The translations under genes and the position numbers were made by a program. 34,785 nucleotides of DNA from Candidatus Poribacteria bacterium (lineage in GTDB: Bacteria > Poribacteria > WGA-4E > PCPOR2b). The notes beneath the pieces were generated by a model. That model did not search any database, was not told the DNA's origin, and saw only the letters and a program-made list of their open reading frames with translations. Of the stretch, positions 22,114-34,785 are shown piece by piece. The DNA is taken from positions 1 through 34,785 of the forward strand of contig JAGWBT010000012.1 in assembly GCA_021295755.1 (NCBI GenBank), written 5' to 3'. How positions within the stretch are numbered: the first letter of the stretch is position 1; each line of letters starts with the position of its first letter.

Positions 22114-23529
22114 ATGAGTAGCCATACAGCCGCACAATACCACCAAGATGCCGCTATGAGCGCTGAAGTGTTCAGTGAATTACACAGTTTGCTAGGCGAT
22201 CGCCTAACCACGGCGAAAGATGTTCGGGAAGATCACGCAAAGGATGTTTCTCATCACCTACCCCATCTGCCGCATGCTGTCGCATTCCCCCACACTAACA
22301 CTGAAGTCTCCCAAATCGTGAAAATCTGTGCCCGGTATTCGGTTCCGATTGTTCCCTTTGGTACAGGGACCGGAGTTGAGGGGGCGGTTGTGGCTATCCA
22401 TGGGGGTATCTGCGTCGATCTGACGCAGATGAACCAAATTCTTCAGGTCAATCAGAGCGACATGGACGCAACAGTGCAAGCAGGAGTCACACGGTACCAA
22501 CTCAACAGTCATCTCTCTGAAACGGGGACGGGGCTTTACTTCCCCGTCGATCCGGGGGCAGATGCGTCGTTGGGCGGTATGGCAGCAACACGCGCATCAG
22601 GTAACGCCGCGGTACGTTACGGCACCATGCGAGAGAATGTACTGGGATTGACAGTAGTAACCGCCGATGGGAATATCATCCGCACCGGAGGTCGCGCCCG
22701 TAAATCCTCCGCGGGCTATGATTTGACGCGGTTATTTGTGGGGTCGGAAGGAACACTGGGCGTTATCACAGAGGTAGCATTGAAACTGGTGAAAACACCG
22801 GAGGCTGTTTCGGCAGCAGTATGTGCGTTTTCAGATGTTGCAGCAGCATCCAATACGGCTATCCAAGTGATTGGGTCCGGCATTCCCGTGGCGCGACTGG
22901 AGTTACTGGATGAAGTGCAAATGGGCGCGGTTAATGCTTACTCAGGCCTAGATTACAAAGCCGCCTCAACACTCCTTTTTGAATTTCACGGTTCAGAATC
23001 AGCGGTGACCGAGCAAGCGCAAACTGTGGGCACAATTGTTCGCGAACATGGTGGGGAAGGCTTTCAGTGGGCAGCTGGAGAGGAAGAGCGCAACAGACTC
23101 TGGCAAGCACGGTATGACAGCTATTACGCCTCACTGGCACTCCGCCCCGGATCGGTTGGGTATGTCACGGATGTTTGCGTTCCCATTTCACGCTTGGCGG
23201 ATTGTATCCTCAAAACTAAGAAGGAAATCCAAGCATCTGGCTTAATTGCGCCGCTGCTTGGGCATGTAGGAGATGGCAATTTCCACGTGGTATTCCCCCT
23301 CGATCCCAACTGTCCCGAAGAGTTGAAGGAAGCACAACGGCTCAGTCAACTTTTCGTAGAATACGCGCTTGAGATGGACGGCACCTGTACCGGTGAACAC
23401 GGCATCGGACTGGGCAAGATCGACGCTCTCAAACAGGAGCACGGACTAGGCGTTGATGTGATGCAAACTATCAAAAAGTCCCTAGACCCACAAAATATCA
23501 TGAACCCCGGCAAGGTCATACCGCTCTGA
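22114..23529 (+). CDS. FAD-linked oxidase, GlcD/D-lactate dehydrogenase type
   Basis: FAD-dependent oxidase of 2-hydroxy acids such as glycolate or D-lactate. FAD-binding PCMH domain: VPIVPFGTGTGVEGAVV, then GGMAATRASGNAAVRYGTMRENV (about residues 150-175) and SEGTLGVITE. The C-terminal cap has the metal-site histidines in GHVGDGNFHV and the family signature GTCTGEHGIGLGK (about residues 425-440). It is 471 residues, full length. The GlcE and GlcF partners are absent nearby, so it is either a single-component enzyme or uses a partner elsewhere. It is followed five bases later by a small membrane protein. The glyoxylate-reductase gene at 9067 is the opposite reaction type, but the two genes are far apart. 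Confidence 0.9.
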   Translation: MSSHTAAQYHQDAAMSAEVFSELHSLLGDRLTTAKDVREDHAKDVSHHLPHLPHAVAFPHTNTEVSQIVKICARYSVPIVPFGTGTGVEGAVVAIHGGICVDLTQMNQILQVNQSDMDATVQAGVTRYQLNSHLSETGTGLYFPVDPGADASLGGMAATRASGNAAVRYGTMRENVLGLTVVTADGNIIRTGGRARKSSAGYDLTRLFVGSEGTLGVITEVALKLVKTPEAVSAAVCAFSDVAAASNTAIQVIGSGIPVARLELLDEVQMGAVNAYSGLDYKAASTLLFEFHGSESAVTEQAQTVGTIVREHGGEGFQWAAGEEERNRLWQARYDSYYASLALRPGSVGYVTDVCVPISRLADCILKTKKEIQASGLIAPLLGHVGDGNFHVVFPLDPNCPEELKEAQRLSQLFVEYALEMDGTCTGEHGIGLGKIDALKQEHGLGVDVMQTIKKSLDPQNIMNPGKVIPL

Positions 23530-25257: not shown

Positions 25258-25279
25258 AAATTGAGTTTGCGTAAAGGCT

Positions 25280-25551
25280 ATGAAAGGACTAAGTAAGCGG
25301 TTCGAGTATTCTAATTAGAGAGGATGCGTCACCGGTTGAAAGCGCATCTTTAGAACGAGTCGCCGAATTTCATCCTGGAGCCGCCGAGTTGAACGCCAAT
25401 TTTGGCAATTAGGTTCGTGCCGGGAGTTTCACCGTTACCGAAACGATTAATGAAGTGGGCAGATAGTATATCTGCCAATAAGGGTGGTACCGCGGAAGAT
25501 CTTGACGCCTGTCACTTTCGTCCCTTGGACGGGGTGATAGGCGTTTTTTTT
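25280..25551 (+). promoter_or_regulatory. T-box riboswitch (Phe, specifier UUC) in front of pheST
   Basis: The T-box core AAGGGTGGTACCGCGG (25480-25495) is exact. Upstream are the stem I marks: GGACTAAGTA (AGTA at 25292-25295), AGAGAGG (25317-25323) and a GGTTGAAAGCGC-like apical segment. The 3' side of the specifier loop reads GAATTTCATC, in which UUC (25369-25371) is a Phe codon and fits pheS. The terminator pairs ACGCCTGTCAC (25505-25515) with GTGATAGGCGT (25533-25543) and ends in a run of T. Uncharged tRNA-Phe would favour the antiterminator and so switch on pheS and pheT. No separate promoter was seen in the leader, so readthrough from rplT is possible. Confidence 0.88.
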
Positions 25552-29023: not shown

Positions 29024-30055
29024 TTACCGGCGCCACCATCTTCTCTTGGATTTCGCTTCTGGTAGGTGGGGCTGGAGGGATTTTTCGGAACGTAAGGATT
29101 TGAGCAGGTTTGATATTTCCTTATTCCTTCTGTTAGTTTCTAAAACGGTTTCACACATTGCAACTGCGCGTCCCCCAACCGTCGGATCTTGCGTCGCTTG
29201 ATAAGCAAGCCCACAGATTGTCGCAGCGGCACTGTTGTATTCCACTGGCTCAATCTCGCTCGGCAGTTCATCGGGAAGCCAATCGAGAAGTGCAAACCCA
29301 ACCTGCCACGCCTGAGATTTTGCGTCGCAAATTAACTTGTGATACAACAGATCCGTCGATGAATCATCGAGCCAATACGCCTGTTCGTAGCATGCAGCCG
29401 CCTCGTCATACGCTTCATTGGCAATGTGGAGTTTCGCCAACTCCGTATAAAACGCATACAATCCGCGATCGGTGATGGCGTACACTTCGTGTTGTGTACT
29501 CGTCAACCATTCTCCTGTCTCCAGAAATTCGATTGCCGAGTTTTTCTCATCCTCTGTAATAATAATGCCTGTGAGCAGGTGCTTTGCCACCGCCGCATTC
29601 GGGTAAATTTTGGTACGGCTCTTCATCAGGGGATACGCCTGCACCGGCTTGTCCATCTGAAGCAGTTTGAGTCCCGTTGCAATTCGGAAAAGCGAGATGA
29701 TTGAATCGCTATTTTTTCGCGCCCTTTCATCAAAAACGGACGTTTGATTGTCAGCAATATGGCAATTGAGGGAGTCTAACTCTGATCGGATTGTTGGATC
29801 TACCGGCTCCACCTCGTGCGCTTTCGCAAGGAACCTTTGGGCGGTAAACAGTTCATCCCACTCCCGATAGATCCGTCCAAGTGACAGATTCGCCTGTGCC
29901 AGAAGCGGCGGTGCAACGGCGACAGACGCAATGGTATCCCACGCTTGGATCGCCGTTGAAAGTTCCTTTGGCGCTGTCAGGGTTTGCGCATGATCAACAA
30001 ATCGATCCAACTCTACTCCGATTTTCGCCCTGTCGAATATGAAAATCTGGTCCAC
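29024..30055 (-). CDS. TPR-like helical repeat protein
   Basis: The 343-residue protein consists mostly of paired helices with TPR-type spacing, for example AQANLSLGRIYREWDELFTAQRFLAKA (about residues 55-80) and LAKLHIANEAYDEAAACYEQAYWLDD (about 205-230). The tail KSKRRWWRR is very basic. No signal peptide was seen, so it should be cytoplasmic and act as a protein-protein scaffold. A TTG at 30070 opens the frame; a GTG at 30055 with GAGAGG seven bases upstream is preferred as the start. It directly follows the small protein gene on the same strand. Partner not known. Confidence 0.7.
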   Translation of the reverse strand: MDQIFIFDRAKIGVELDRFVDHAQTLTAPKELSTAIQAWDTIASVAVAPPLLAQANLSLGRIYREWDELFTAQRFLAKAHEVEPVDPTIRSELDSLNCHIADNQTSVFDERARKNSDSIISLFRIATGLKLLQMDKPVQAYPLMKSRTKIYPNAAVAKHLLTGIIITEDEKNSAIEFLETGEWLTSTQHEVYAITDRGLYAFYTELAKLHIANEAYDEAAACYEQAYWLDDSSTDLLYHKLICDAKSQAWQVGFALLDWLPDELPSEIEPVEYNSAAATICGLAYQATQDPTVGGRAVAMCETVLETNRRNKEISNLLKSLRSEKSLQPHLPEAKSKRRWWRR

Positions 30056-30073
30056 GGGTGACCCTCTCAAATC

Positions 30074-30464: not shown

Positions 30465-31154
30465 CTATTTTCCGCCGATCGTCCACTCACTAATCTCCCA
30501 TTCCGATTCTATTGCAACCTGCCGTAACCCTTTGCTCGGATTGACGGCGATCGGGTTACCAACGCATTCTAGCATGGGCAGATCTGCACGGCTATCGCCA
30601 TACGCATAACTTGCAGCGAGGTCAACATTATGCTGTTCGACGAAAGTTTGGATAGCGCGAACTTTTTCCGCCTCGCTCAACGGCGGCGTTGTCAATTCCC
30701 CCGTAAACTTTCCATGCGCCTCCTCAAGTTGTACAGTCAACGCAGCGTCTACTTGGAGATAGTCGGCAAGGGGCTGGATGATAAAATCAAGGGAACCGGT
30801 TACAAGCACAACCAACTCTCCCCGATCTTGGTGTTCACGAATATGATCTAAAGCGGCGGGGAATAACTTTGAGCGCACATAAGTCTCGAACTGCTCACCA
30901 GCGAGTTGTTTGACATTTTCCGCATCCAGCCCTCGATAGTTGCGATAGAAAACTCGGTTGAATCTTGTGCGACTTACTTTGTCTAGAAAAAAGTAATAGA
31001 CAACTTTCAACGTAAACCAAGCAATCCAGAAGGGACGAAAAAAGGAAGGGAGCAGATAAGACCGGAATTGGACGTAATAGTGGACGATGGTTGTGCTAAC
31101 GATGGTGCCATCAACATCAAAAAAGGCAGCCGTTTTTTTCTGTTCCGCTGACAT
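30465..31154 (-). CDS. HAD-IB family phosphatase (PSPase/PlsC-partner type)
   Basis: Phosphohydrolase of the haloacid dehalogenase superfamily, subfamily IB, 229 residues. Motif I is FFDVDGTIVS with the nucleophile Asp, motif II is LVTGSLDF, motif III has the Lys in EAEKVRAIQ, and motif IV is YAYGDSRADLPML. A hydrophobic stretch (about residues 40-58, with FFRPFWIAWFTLKVVYYFF) suggests attachment to the membrane. The ATG (31154) comes one base after the stop of the acyl-reductase/acyltransferase gene and has GAGG upstream, so the two are coupled. HAD-IB domains fused to PlsC acyltransferases are known, and a lipid phosphate (such as lysophosphatidate or acyl-phosphate) is the likely substrate. 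Confidence 0.85.
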   Translation of the reverse strand: MSAEQKKTAAFFDVDGTIVSTTIVHYYVQFRSYLLPSFFRPFWIAWFTLKVVYYFFLDKVSRTRFNRVFYRNYRGLDAENVKQLAGEQFETYVRSKLFPAALDHIREHQDRGELVVLVTGSLDFIIQPLADYLQVDAALTVQLEEAHGKFTGELTTPPLSEAEKVRAIQTFVEQHNVDLAASYAYGDSRADLPMLECVGNPIAVNPSKGLRQVAIESEWEISEWTIGGK

Positions 31155-31155
31155 C

Positions 31156-34100
31156 TTACGCCTCACGATTTACACAATCCGCTCGTAATGCTTCAATCTC
31201 AGCCCTGACGGCATCAGCAAGTTTCCTGTAAGTCTCCTGTTCCAGTCCTGAAGCGGCGTCCGTCTTCTCTATTCCGTGTCCGCTAGATGGCATGATAGGC
31301 TTACCAAAAGTCACCCGAATACGGCTCTTACGCGGCAGATTTCTGCCTTTAGGCAGCGCGTGGTAAGTACCGTCAATATAAGCGGGAACAATTGGGGATC
31401 CAGTTTCATAAGCCAACAAGCCGAGTCCGGGTTTGAACGGTTGAAGTTCCCCGGTGACAGAGCGGGTGCCTTCGGGATAGATCAGCAGGCACTCGTTCTG
31501 TTTCAGTACCTCCTGCGAAATTCGGAGCCCCTGCAAGAAATTAGCATGCCGATCAAACGGTACGAATTTAAGCAATTCGCCGGAGAACCACGATTTGAAA
31601 CGGGTGCTAAACCAATAATCTTTCGCAGCGAGAACTCTCAGGCGTTTGCATTCGTCACCCAAAACGGTCATGATTGCGAGAGTATCGAGGTGACTCGAAT
31701 GATTTGCAGCGATGATATACGGCTCACGCGACAGATTTGTCAGTCCATTACATTTAATTGAGAAGTAACACCTATAGATAGCCCACACACCGAATCGAAA
31801 TAGCGTCGCCAGTGCAGCGGATATAAGTGAGGATTCAGACCGTACAATATAGGCAGATGTTTCTTCATCAATAGAAGGCGGTGCGGAATCAGATTGCAAC
31901 GTCCTGACTGTCTCCGTTACGTCACCAACCGTCTGGATTTTGGCAATCAACTCATCGGGAATTGAGCGTTGCAGTCTAGACTCCAGCAGAAGCAGCAATT
32001 CCACCCGCGCCATTGAATCCAGTCCGAGCTCTGTCCCCAAATTGCTATTTAAATGGATCTGATCCGCCGGTAGACGCGCCAAACGACTGAGTTCAGAAAT
32101 AATAACCTCCTCGACCCCCGCAGGTGTGTCAGGAGCCACCGTTGACTTCAAGGTATCCTCGTTTCCATCGGTAGCCAGAGTATCTTTGACAGGATCGGGC
32201 TGCGGAGCCTCTTGTGTCTGCCGAGAGAGTTGTTCTTGCAAGACCTCTTTAACACGTTGGCGATCTATCACTGCAGCCGAGGTCTTGGGCAATTCAGTAT
32301 CCCAAAAGTATACTGTTTGGAGATGTTGATATGTCGGCAAGTCTTGGGCACGTTCCTGAATGTGTTGATGGATGGCTTTCTCAACCTCAGTCCTATCTCG
32401 ATCATCATCATGAACTGGAACGATGATAGCGTGTGCTGCCTCAAACAGATTATCTGTGCTCATCCCAACAATGCAGATCTCTGAGATCAAGGGACTGTGT
32501 TGGTAGAGTGCTTCAAGCTCAACCGGGTAGATATTTTTCCCGGCACCAGACACAATCACATCCTTGCTGCGGCCGGTGAGGTACAGATAACCTTCCTCAT
32601 CAAAGTAACCCAAATCGCCTGTATAGAGCAGCCCATCTCGAATCACCTGTTCTGTCATGGCTTGATTTCGATAGTAGCCTTGCATCAGGCTGGGGCTGCT
32701 TGCGACGATCTCACCAATACCGTTCTTGCCAGGATTGATAATCTGAAGTTCTACTCCCTGAACTTCAGGTCCGACCGTTCCCCGCTTGCTTTTGTGGTAA
32801 GGATTTACACTCAGAACAGGAGAGGCTTCTGTCATGCCATAGCCTTGATAAATTGTTAATCCAAACTCCATGAATCGATCGTACACTTCGTCCGGCAATG
32901 CAGCACCCCCACTGACCAGAACGCGGATATGCCCTCCCAATGCAGCTTGAATCTCTTGGACAACCTCTGGATCAAGTGGCGCTTCCATTGCTTCAGGGGA
33001 CTCTACAACATAACGTTTAATCGTATCGTAGAGCAGTTGGAACAAGCGCGGCACTCCAATCAGCACGGTAGTCTTGGTCTCCCGCATGATCGCCAAAATC
33101 GAGGTCGGTCTCAAACTATTGGTGTATGTGATGGTTGTACCGGCGTAAATCGACATCAAGAAATTGCAAGAGAACCCTAGCGCGTGGTACAACGGCAGAA
33201 CTGAAAGGAATCGATCCGTGTCTTCGGGAGGTAGTGCCTGCGAAACGGCAACAACGTTTGCGATAAACCCCCTATGTGAAATCATCGCACCCCGTGCATC
33301 TACAGTCGTGCCCATTGTGAAGATGATCGACGCAACCGTATCTGGATCGATGTCCACATCAGGAAAATTATCAGGAACTGGGGGGAGTTTCGAGCCCGTA
33401 GGCACAGAGGTTTCGGTCTGCTCACGTTCAAAAGGTTGGCAGAAACTATTGATATTCAAGAACTCCGGTGATGTCGATTCCGCACTTGGCTTTATCGGGG
33501 TACTCTGTAAACGAGTAACGCAGGCTTCAGAAGCCAAAACCGCTTTTGATTCAGTGTACTCCGCAAGTGCGAATATTTCTTCTTCAGCGGTCTGTGGGTC
33601 AATTGGAACGACAATAACCCCGATCTGTACAGCAGCTAAATAAGTAATACCCCACTCCGGCTGATTTTCGGCAAAAAGGATCACCCGATCGCCTTTACGA
33701 TAACCACGCTTCCACAACACAAAGGCAACCTGCCGTGAAACCTCATAAAGTTGACTATAAGAATATCGCACCCATTCGCTACCGCGTTTCATCTGCAACG
33801 CGATTTTATCCGGAATAGATTCTGCCTGTCGGGCAACCAAATCTATCATTGTCTGACGCTCGATCGGTTTGGAGGATTCGTTGACGGGCGGCTCTGCGGA
33901 TTCATTGTGCGCTCTAAATTCTTCTTCGGAGGAGGTATCCGCCGGTAATTCGCCAATACGATCAGGCGTCGGTTCGCTGATTCTCTGACTTCCTGAGTCG
34001 TCGCCTAGTTTGAGAAAGTGTCGTTTGATTCCTGGGATGTGTATTTCTTGGAAATAACGTCGCCAATCAATCCGTGACATGTCAAAGTTGAATTGTTGTT

Positions 34101-34785
34101 GATCGGCAGGCGAAAGGGAATCGTAGAGTGCTTCTGTCTTACCAATTTCAAACTCAAAACTGAGGCGGACATAGGGACCATAAATCTGCACATAGTGTAG
34201 TAGGGTTTCAATGGCATTCTTTTTAACTGCGATTCGGCGCTCTTTCCGCCTTGCCCATCTCAACGGAAGGCGATTGAGCCAACGACTGGCTGTGTCGAGC
34301 AAATGCAGCTTCTGACGAAGATCCTTCTGGAATTTTTGTTCATCCGGAAACTTCCATACAGGAACAGGTATCGGCACCCCGTTATCTAATAATGGCTGTC
34401 GCGTAAAGTAGTCGTGAGTGATGTTGACGATATCGCCAAAAGTCAGAGGATTGCGCGCTCCACTCGCTACGTGATAGACCTCTATGCCTTGACGGTAATA
34501 CGTCTGCACAGTCGCCGCTAAAATAGCGTTGATAACGAAATCAGCAGGGATAATATCAAGGATGCTATCCGGGTCGCCGGGAAAATCCGGCAAACGTCCT
34601 TTTCCAAAACCAACAATTAGTGGATCCGCCATGCGTAGCGCACCACCGAGCCAACCCGGCTCCGGATCCTCAAGGCTGCTCTCCATAATTGATTGGCGAA
34701 TAATTGCCGTCGGCAGATCACCTCGCGTCTTCGCAATCATCTGCTCACCGAGGGCTTTCATATAGGTATAGGTATCGTTCCAACC
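31156..34785 (-). CDS. Multidomain fatty acyl reductase - AMP ligase-like - ACP - PlsC acyltransferase (N-terminus cut by window end)
   Basis: The frame is open to the last base, so the N-terminus lies outside. 1,209 residues are visible; numbers count from the Met at 34761. Residues 1-140: end of a male-sterility-type fatty acyl reductase NAD domain, with the catalytic YxxxK as YTYMK at the edge. 150-252: FAR C-terminal domain (FNFDMSRIDWRRYF, GIKRHFL). 300-850: AMP-ligase domain (YGMTEASP 641-648, YTGDLGYFDEEGY 713-725). 885-955: acyl carrier protein with the phosphopantetheine Ser916 in GLDSM. 1000-1190: PlsC acyltransferase with HSSHLD (1021-1026) and EGTR (1097-1100). The chain could activate, reduce and transfer acyl groups. 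The domain set recalls ElbD of myxobacterial ether-lipid synthesis. The coupled HAD-IB phosphatase follows. The AMP-ligase core motifs are altered (see findings). Confidence 0.88.
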   Translation of the reverse strand, partial: GWNDTYTYMKALGEQMIAKTRGDLPTAIIRQSIMESSLEDPEPGWLGGALRMADPLIVGFGKGRLPDFPGDPDSILDIIPADFVINAILAATVQTYYRQGIEVYHVASGARNPLTFGDIVNITHDYFTRQPLLDNGVPIPVPVWKFPDEQKFQKDLRQKLHLLDTASRWLNRLPLRWARRKERRIAVKKNAIETLLHYVQIYGPYVRLSFEFEIGKTEALYDSLSPADQQQFNFDMSRIDWRRYFQEIHIPGIKRHFLKLGDDSGSQRISEPTPDRIGELPADTSSEEEFRAHNESAEPPVNESSKPIERQTMIDLVARQAESIPDKIALQMKRGSEWVRYSYSQLYEVSRQVAFVLWKRGYRKGDRVILFAENQPEWGITYLAAVQIGVIVVPIDPQTAEEEIFALAEYTESKAVLASEACVTRLQSTPIKPSAESTSPEFLNINSFCQPFEREQTETSVPTGSKLPPVPDNFPDVDIDPDTVASIIFTMGTTVDARGAMISHRGFIANVVAVSQALPPEDTDRFLSVLPLYHALGFSCNFLMSIYAGTTITYTNSLRPTSILAIMRETKTTVLIGVPRLFQLLYDTIKRYVVESPEAMEAPLDPEVVQEIQAALGGHIRVLVSGGAALPDEVYDRFMEFGLTIYQGYGMTEASPVLSVNPYHKSKRGTVGPEVQGVELQIINPGKNGIGEIVASSPSLMQGYYRNQAMTEQVIRDGLLYTGDLGYFDEEGYLYLTGRSKDVIVSGAGKNIYPVELEALYQHSPLISEICIVGMSTDNLFEAAHAIIVPVHDDDRDRTEVEKAIHQHIQERAQDLPTYQHLQTVYFWDTELPKTSAAVIDRQRVKEVLQEQLSRQTQEAPQPDPVKDTLATDGNEDTLKSTVAPDTPAGVEEVIISELSRLARLPADQIHLNSNLGTELGLDSMARVELLLLLESRLQRSIPDELIAKIQTVGDVTETVRTLQSDSAPPSIDEETSAYIVRSESSLISAALATLFRFGVWAIYRCYFSIKCNGLTNLSREPYIIAANHSSHLDTLAIMTVLGDECKRLRVLAAKDYWFSTRFKSWFSGELLKFVPFDRHANFLQGLRISQEVLKQNECLLIYPEGTRSVTGELQPFKPGLGLLAYETGSPIVPAYIDGTYHALPKGRNLPRKSRIRVTFGKPIMPSSGHGIEKTDAASGLEQETYRKLADAVRAEIEALRADCVNREA

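Follow-up and report, generated by a model that had tools for sequence, protein, structure and literature searches.

The closest described relative of the system discussed here is ElbD of Myxococcus xanthus (MIBiG BGC0000871), a single chain of FAR1-like, ACS, ACP and AGPAT-like domains whose gene shares an operon with elbB, a HAD gene (PMC9131029, PMC9426513). Its ACS and ACP domains have been reported to be active, loss of elbD strongly lowers the ether lipids of M. xanthus while loss of AGPS, the alkyl-dihydroxyacetone phosphate (alkyl-DHAP) synthase, has a minor effect, and the route from ElbD to an ether bond without AGPS has been described as unknown (PMC9131029). Poribacterial ElbD homologues are already on record (PMC9426513; also Lorenzen et al. 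2014, as cited). Here we describe such an ElbD-like gene, together with the HAD-IB phosphatase gene that follows it, at the end of a 34,785-nucleotide stretch of DNA from a sponge-associated Poribacterium (contig JAGWBT010000012.1, hereafter the window). Since Poribacterial homologues are already published, the window feature belongs to a known kind; the new parts are its spread through the phylum and the scarcity there of known ether-forming enzymes, operons of related fatty acyl-CoA reductases (FARs) with AGPS, an alternation between AGPS and the HAD among relatives, and gene fusions of the FAR with the HAD. We put at roughly 60% the probability that the two window genes encode an ElbD-type enzyme and an ElbB-type HAD feeding an AGPS-independent route to alkyl-ether glycerolipids.

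The window spans all of contig C12, from a genome of 5.03 Mb in 257 contigs, so the ElbD-like gene runs off the contig end. Its 3' part (31156-34785, minus strand, as are all its domains) is an open reading frame (ORF) of 1209 amino acids, 5'-open at the contig end. The domains follow in the order NAD_binding_4 (FAR_N), Sterile (FAR_C, 34009-34215), AMP-binding (the acyl ligase, 32671-33834, E 4.6e-74), AMP-binding_C (32278-32520), PP-binding (ACP, 31909-32106) and Acyltransferase (PlsC, 31375-31758), and every match exceeds the Pfam gathering score. This bears out the five-domain chain proposed in a sequence-only reading of the window, with only the C-terminal third of FAR_N lying inside it (34522-34785, positions 172-258 of 258, with the YxxxK motif YTYMK). 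The FAR part matches a solved fatty acyl-CoA reductase (PDB 7eoz, E 1.2e-49). The PlsC domain has its HX4D motif as NHSSHLD and its EGTR motif as YPEGTRS, and the ACP has the phosphopantetheine serine in LGLDSM (codon 32014-32016), previously given as Ser916, a number that holds when counting starts at the ATG at 34761 and becomes Ser924 in the open frame. The remainder of the gene lies on contig C55 of the same genome (G000:C55, 2-637, minus strand), where NAD_binding_4 positions 1-158 and the NAD motif GATGFLGQ are found. The loss of this motif had been named beforehand as a possible refutation of an ether-lipid system, and the motif is present, at the N-terminus of a FAR1-like reductase as in ElbD. 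The unassembled gap between the two parts amounts to 65 residues in 4 of 4 congeners compared. Congeners have intact genes of 1490-1553 amino acids (longest ORF) and the same gene order across the junction, namely an SDR, which is of FabG type and upstream of the ElbD-like gene in the window's genus, then the ElbD-like gene, the HAD, a TPR-like protein and pheT.

The HAD gene (30465-31154, minus strand; TIGR01490 above cut-off) begins one base past the ElbD-like gene, as had been claimed, with the TAA stop at 31158-31156 and the ATG at 31154. It encodes the motifs DVDGT, TGS, K and GDSRAD, and is the counterpart of elbB, the HAD gene of the M. xanthus operon. The key residues of FAR, ACP, PlsC and HAD are kept across relatives with few exceptions. 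The earlier comparison with M. xanthus ElbD (ABF88003.1) stands for the domain set and the operon HAD, which fit the published descriptions (PMC9131029); the ether product we still infer. The loci also differ, in that M. xanthus has CarF and AGPS, neither of which was found in the window genome, and that neither ElbE, an NAD epimerase adjacent in M. xanthus, nor ElbC was recognised in the window operon. More broadly, elbE (NAD-dependent epimerase/dehydratase) was not recognised in a search of the genes adjoining ElbD in Poribacterial loci. The VEPE-like gene cluster families of sponge Poribacteria and Acidobacteriota share the domain set, the phylum and flanking hydrolase and oxidoreductase genes with the window, and the accessible part of that paper contains no AGPS/HAD alternation, FAR-HAD fusion or AGPS-linked variant (PMC9426513). 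A literature search, with many journals outside its coverage, likewise returned no prior account of the alternation or the fusions.

The alternation emerged among 41 non-Poribacterial genomes selected by FAR similarity alone, with AGPS scored at E <= 1e-60 and ElbD-linked HAD at E <= 1e-15 (one genome, G121, was scored positive from a fused HAD copy). AGPS alone is found in 17 and HAD alone in 20, while two have neither and two have both (G092, and G096, whose AGPS is weak at 28%; Fisher p 1.7e-7, kinship not corrected for). In Poribacteria, AGPS occurs in 3 of 85 genomes, all of family f3, where the linked HAD is missing and a 32-35% paralogue is all that remains. Both genes were also searched for in the 61 of 396 Acidobacteriota genomes with a reductase match. 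Among 14 of the same ElbD clade, some of which also belong to the 41, AGPS occurs without HAD in eleven (in G271 the copy is partial and lies at the edge of a contig) and HAD without AGPS in three, with none having both or neither. Sister genomes swap partners at the locus: G387 has ElbD, an ORF, AGPS and SDR, and G326 has a diacylglycerol kinase, ElbD, HAD, alcohol dehydrogenase and LarAH. A FAR tree of 81 rows gives 6.2 independent pairs that differ in direction and 0.1 that agree (median p 0.031, range 0.016-0.22). This was the second tree tried, an earlier and smaller one (62 scored rows) having offered fewer such pairs than needed (median p 0.125), and we regard the tree-corrected alternation as suggestive, not strong. 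The idea arose from the 41 genomes, and the Poribacteria and the further Acidobacteriota provide a check on it that is independent in part only.

The AGPS-bearing side of this pattern resembles the peroxisomal FAR1-GNPAT-AGPS pathway and its M. xanthus counterpart MXAN_1674-1676, whose FAR is homologous to ours. The closest FARs in a FAR-based scan, from Latescibacterota and Gemmatimonadota, stand in operons with a GNPAT-like protein of 650 amino acids, AGPS and SDR, in that order and often with a lipid kinase, thereby matching the peroxisomal set. The FAR-linked AGPS is genuine, matching peroxisomal AGPS (4bby) at E 2.2e-152 by phmmer versus 6e-27 for D-lactate dehydrogenase. Even within the window's order, Poribacterium G023 (L059) has ElbD followed directly by AGPS (4bby, E 1.7e-147) and then SDR. 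Alignment with a non-lipid synthase had been named as what would speak against a lipid system, and the homologues adjoin true AGPS, not non-lipid synthases. From sequence alone, the operons joining FAR or ElbD with true AGPS offer the strongest indication that ether lipids are what this FAR lineage would serve. The window genome differs from the peroxisomal set in its lack of AGPS, in the fusion of ligase, ACP and PlsC to FAR, and in having the HAD instead. The 650-amino-acid protein between FAR and AGPS (L111:9437-11392; alignment A2 with L112, L113, L115 and L116) has no Pfam or NCBIfam match and carries THQSxxDH and YPxGTT motifs. Its model, of moderate confidence (pLDDT 60), best resembles glycerol-3-phosphate acyltransferase and PlsC folds (probability 0.97-1.0, E 0.01-0.04), and it probably represents an unnamed GNPAT-like acyltransferase family.

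On the HAD-bearing side, FAR and HAD are in places a single gene. FAR-HAD fusions are found in Chloroflexota/Dormibacterota (L149-L151, with L149 confirmed by Pfam, and partial in L147) and on a plasmid of Streptomyces sp. NBC_01450, where an unannotated ORF of 1025 amino acids (L216, 5197-8271) has a PlsC gene nearby. This ORF could serve as an experimental handle; a plasmid search gave a single good FAR relative. Another locus (L141) has a FAR-PlsC fusion followed by HAD. The FAR-HAD fusions indicate that FAR and HAD are functionally linked. Within Poribacteria, the ElbD-like gene is present in 76 of 85 genomes (52 of 56 of high quality), and the HAD lies immediately downstream in every retrieved locus outside family f3 with downstream DNA covered. 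Family f7, outside the window's order, has a separate FAR ORF, then a ligase-ACP-PlsC ORF, then HAD, and FAR is split off in some same-order genomes too (L064-L066). These split arrangements suggest that the window gene may derive by fusion within a FAR, [ligase-ACP-PlsC] and HAD operon. Further afield, the FAR-based scan gave a best 80 loci, none myxobacterial, and was complemented by a domain scan; together they yield complete FAR-ligase-ACP-PlsC fusions from records bearing the labels Poribacteria, Latescibacterota, Acidobacteriota, Gemmatimonadota, Planctomycetota, Verrucomicrobiota and Armatimonadota. Full FAR-bearing fusions hence range wider than stated in a review by which homologues outside myxobacteria are almost all without FAR (PMC9131029).

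A recurrent gene order beside FAR or ElbD in several phyla is HAD, Zn alcohol dehydrogenase and LarAH14/15/16, a nickel-pincer hydroxyacid isomerase (L124, L126, L129, L133, L062, L149, L151 and L212). The window genome has an unlinked LarAH (G000:C111:13415-14962; L215:8434-9978) that is 63% identical to an ElbD-linked one of Acidobacteriota, and the three AGPS-bearing Poribacteria have no LarAH matches. We rejected LarAH as a strict partner of HAD because locus L123 has ElbD followed by LarAH in an AGPS-bearing genome.

Taken together, the likely product of the window system would be an alkyl-ether glycerolipid made without AGPS. Drawing on the known chemistry of the families, we propose that the ligase-like domain would activate a fatty acid and pass the acyl group to the fused ACP, that FAR would convert the resulting thioester by reduction into a fatty alcohol (or aldehyde), and that PlsC would acylate a glycerol(phosphate) or DHAP acceptor, with the product entering an alkyl-ether glycerolipid. 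Where AGPS adjoins such an enzyme, the ether bond would be made in the peroxisomal way. In the window lineage, where AGPS is absent, the HAD would join an AGPS-independent route, its substrate being perhaps a lipid phosphate and most simply a phosphorylated lipid intermediate. We place the HAD in this route because phylogenetic profiles show it in the place of AGPS and because some genes fuse it to FAR. That M. xanthus needs elbD and can nearly dispense with AGPS favors an ether product, with the genetics coming from another lineage.

Several observations weigh against this proposal. The window genome yielded no enzyme known to form ether bonds: no protein reaches the AGPS query at E 1e-60, the four FAD-oxidase_C matches included, and the DUF2229 signature of PlsA and the glycerol ester reductase Ger is absent in a search of that genome. 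PlsA/PlsR and Ger also produce bacterial alkyl or alkenyl ethers, but are different enzymes. The FAD oxidase at 22114-23529 was considered as AGPS and rejected because it resembles D-lactate dehydrogenase (8jdc, E 2.8e-148) far more than AGPS (E 4e-29). No CarF (Lipid_desat) scored above cut-off in 85 Poribacteria genomes, the single sub-threshold match being in G034 (E 2e-4, 23 bits). The ligase domain has its fold, the A5/A7/A8 motifs and a P-loop (MGTTVDARG) and lacks the A10 lysine, which is needed for adenylation. At the lysine position (the GK of LPRTxxGKxxR) the window has Val (LPKTSAAVIDR) and only 12 of 82 aligned relatives have Lys, so the domain may not adenylate normally and may load the ACP in a non-standard way. 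This lysine has been lost through most of the family although the remainder of the domain is well kept. Pontiella, an ElbD-bearing genus, showed no ether lipids when tested (PMC11868695). Finally, a more distant Acidobacteriota clade has the HAD throughout, with five genomes adding AGPS; alternation is thus not universal, and "AGPS or HAD" fits better there. M. xanthus, with its elb and AGPS operons, would be of this kind (PMC9131029).

It is possible, if on balance doubtful, that the HAD is an ordinary lipid phosphatase (acting on lysophosphatidic acid, phosphatidic acid or phosphatidylglycerophosphate) carried in the operon, and that the alternation reflects lineage history and incomplete genomes, which would be compatible with an ether product. 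HAD-IB enzymes are common and diverse, most Poribacteria have a second HAD-IB paralogue, the tree-corrected test has few independent pairs, and four of the 41 genomes have both genes or neither. However, FAR-HAD fusions in distant phyla and the constant position of the HAD downstream of ElbD outside f3 are not what such a passenger would predict, and the two Poribacteria without ElbD set against it here, G018 of the same genus and G030 of the same order, also lack the linked HAD.

A serious rival, though an unlikely one, is that HAD-linked ElbDs make another reduced lipid, such as a wax ester or a PlsC-esterified fatty alcohol, and that only their AGPS-linked relatives make ethers, in which case the alternation would separate two products, not two routes. 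The scarcity of AGPS in the phylum and the Pontiella result agree with this, as do the FAR-PlsC and FAR-HAD fusions without a ligase and the use of FAR in wax ester synthesis elsewhere (PMC11948995). Yet in M. xanthus it is the operon-mate of a HAD gene that is needed for ether lipids, with little AGPS dependence (PMC9131029), and either partner can accompany the same fused ElbD, sister loci exchanging AGPS and SDR for HAD, alcohol dehydrogenase and LarAH. An NRPS-like (nonribosomal peptide synthetase-like) synthase of a small natural product, the class that genome-mining tools assign and that sponge studies use for such clusters (PMC9426513), is very improbable, as the 31156-34785 ORF has no condensation, ketosynthase or thioesterase domain, all its domains are of lipid type, and the gene is in most of the phylum, as a housekeeping gene would be.

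Two further features lie beyond the HAD gene. The TPR-like protein, a conserved third gene (29024-30070, minus strand), belongs to a cluster found in 18 Poribacterial loci. A T-box leader at 25271-25528 (Rfam RF00230, 108 bits, above the gathering score) lies just upstream of a gene pair ending in pheT.

An AGPS-independent ether-lipid route through ElbD and the HAD invites a more tentative extension, in which ElbD would feed two interchangeable modules. One would pair AGPS with a reductase; the other would consist of the ElbB-type HAD, in many cases joined by an alcohol dehydrogenase and a LarA-type isomerase. This second module would then be a third bacterial ether-glycerolipid route, independent of AGPS and Ger, with the HAD essential to it, and the main route of most Poribacteria; we think this ambitious version improbable as a whole. 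That similar ElbDs alternate between AGPS and one HAD gene as neighbours points to a concrete candidate for the AGPS-free route, and one open to simple testing by genetics and biochemistry. The pattern also predicts which uncultured phyla could make ether lipids, and bears on lipid biomarkers and sponge symbiosis.

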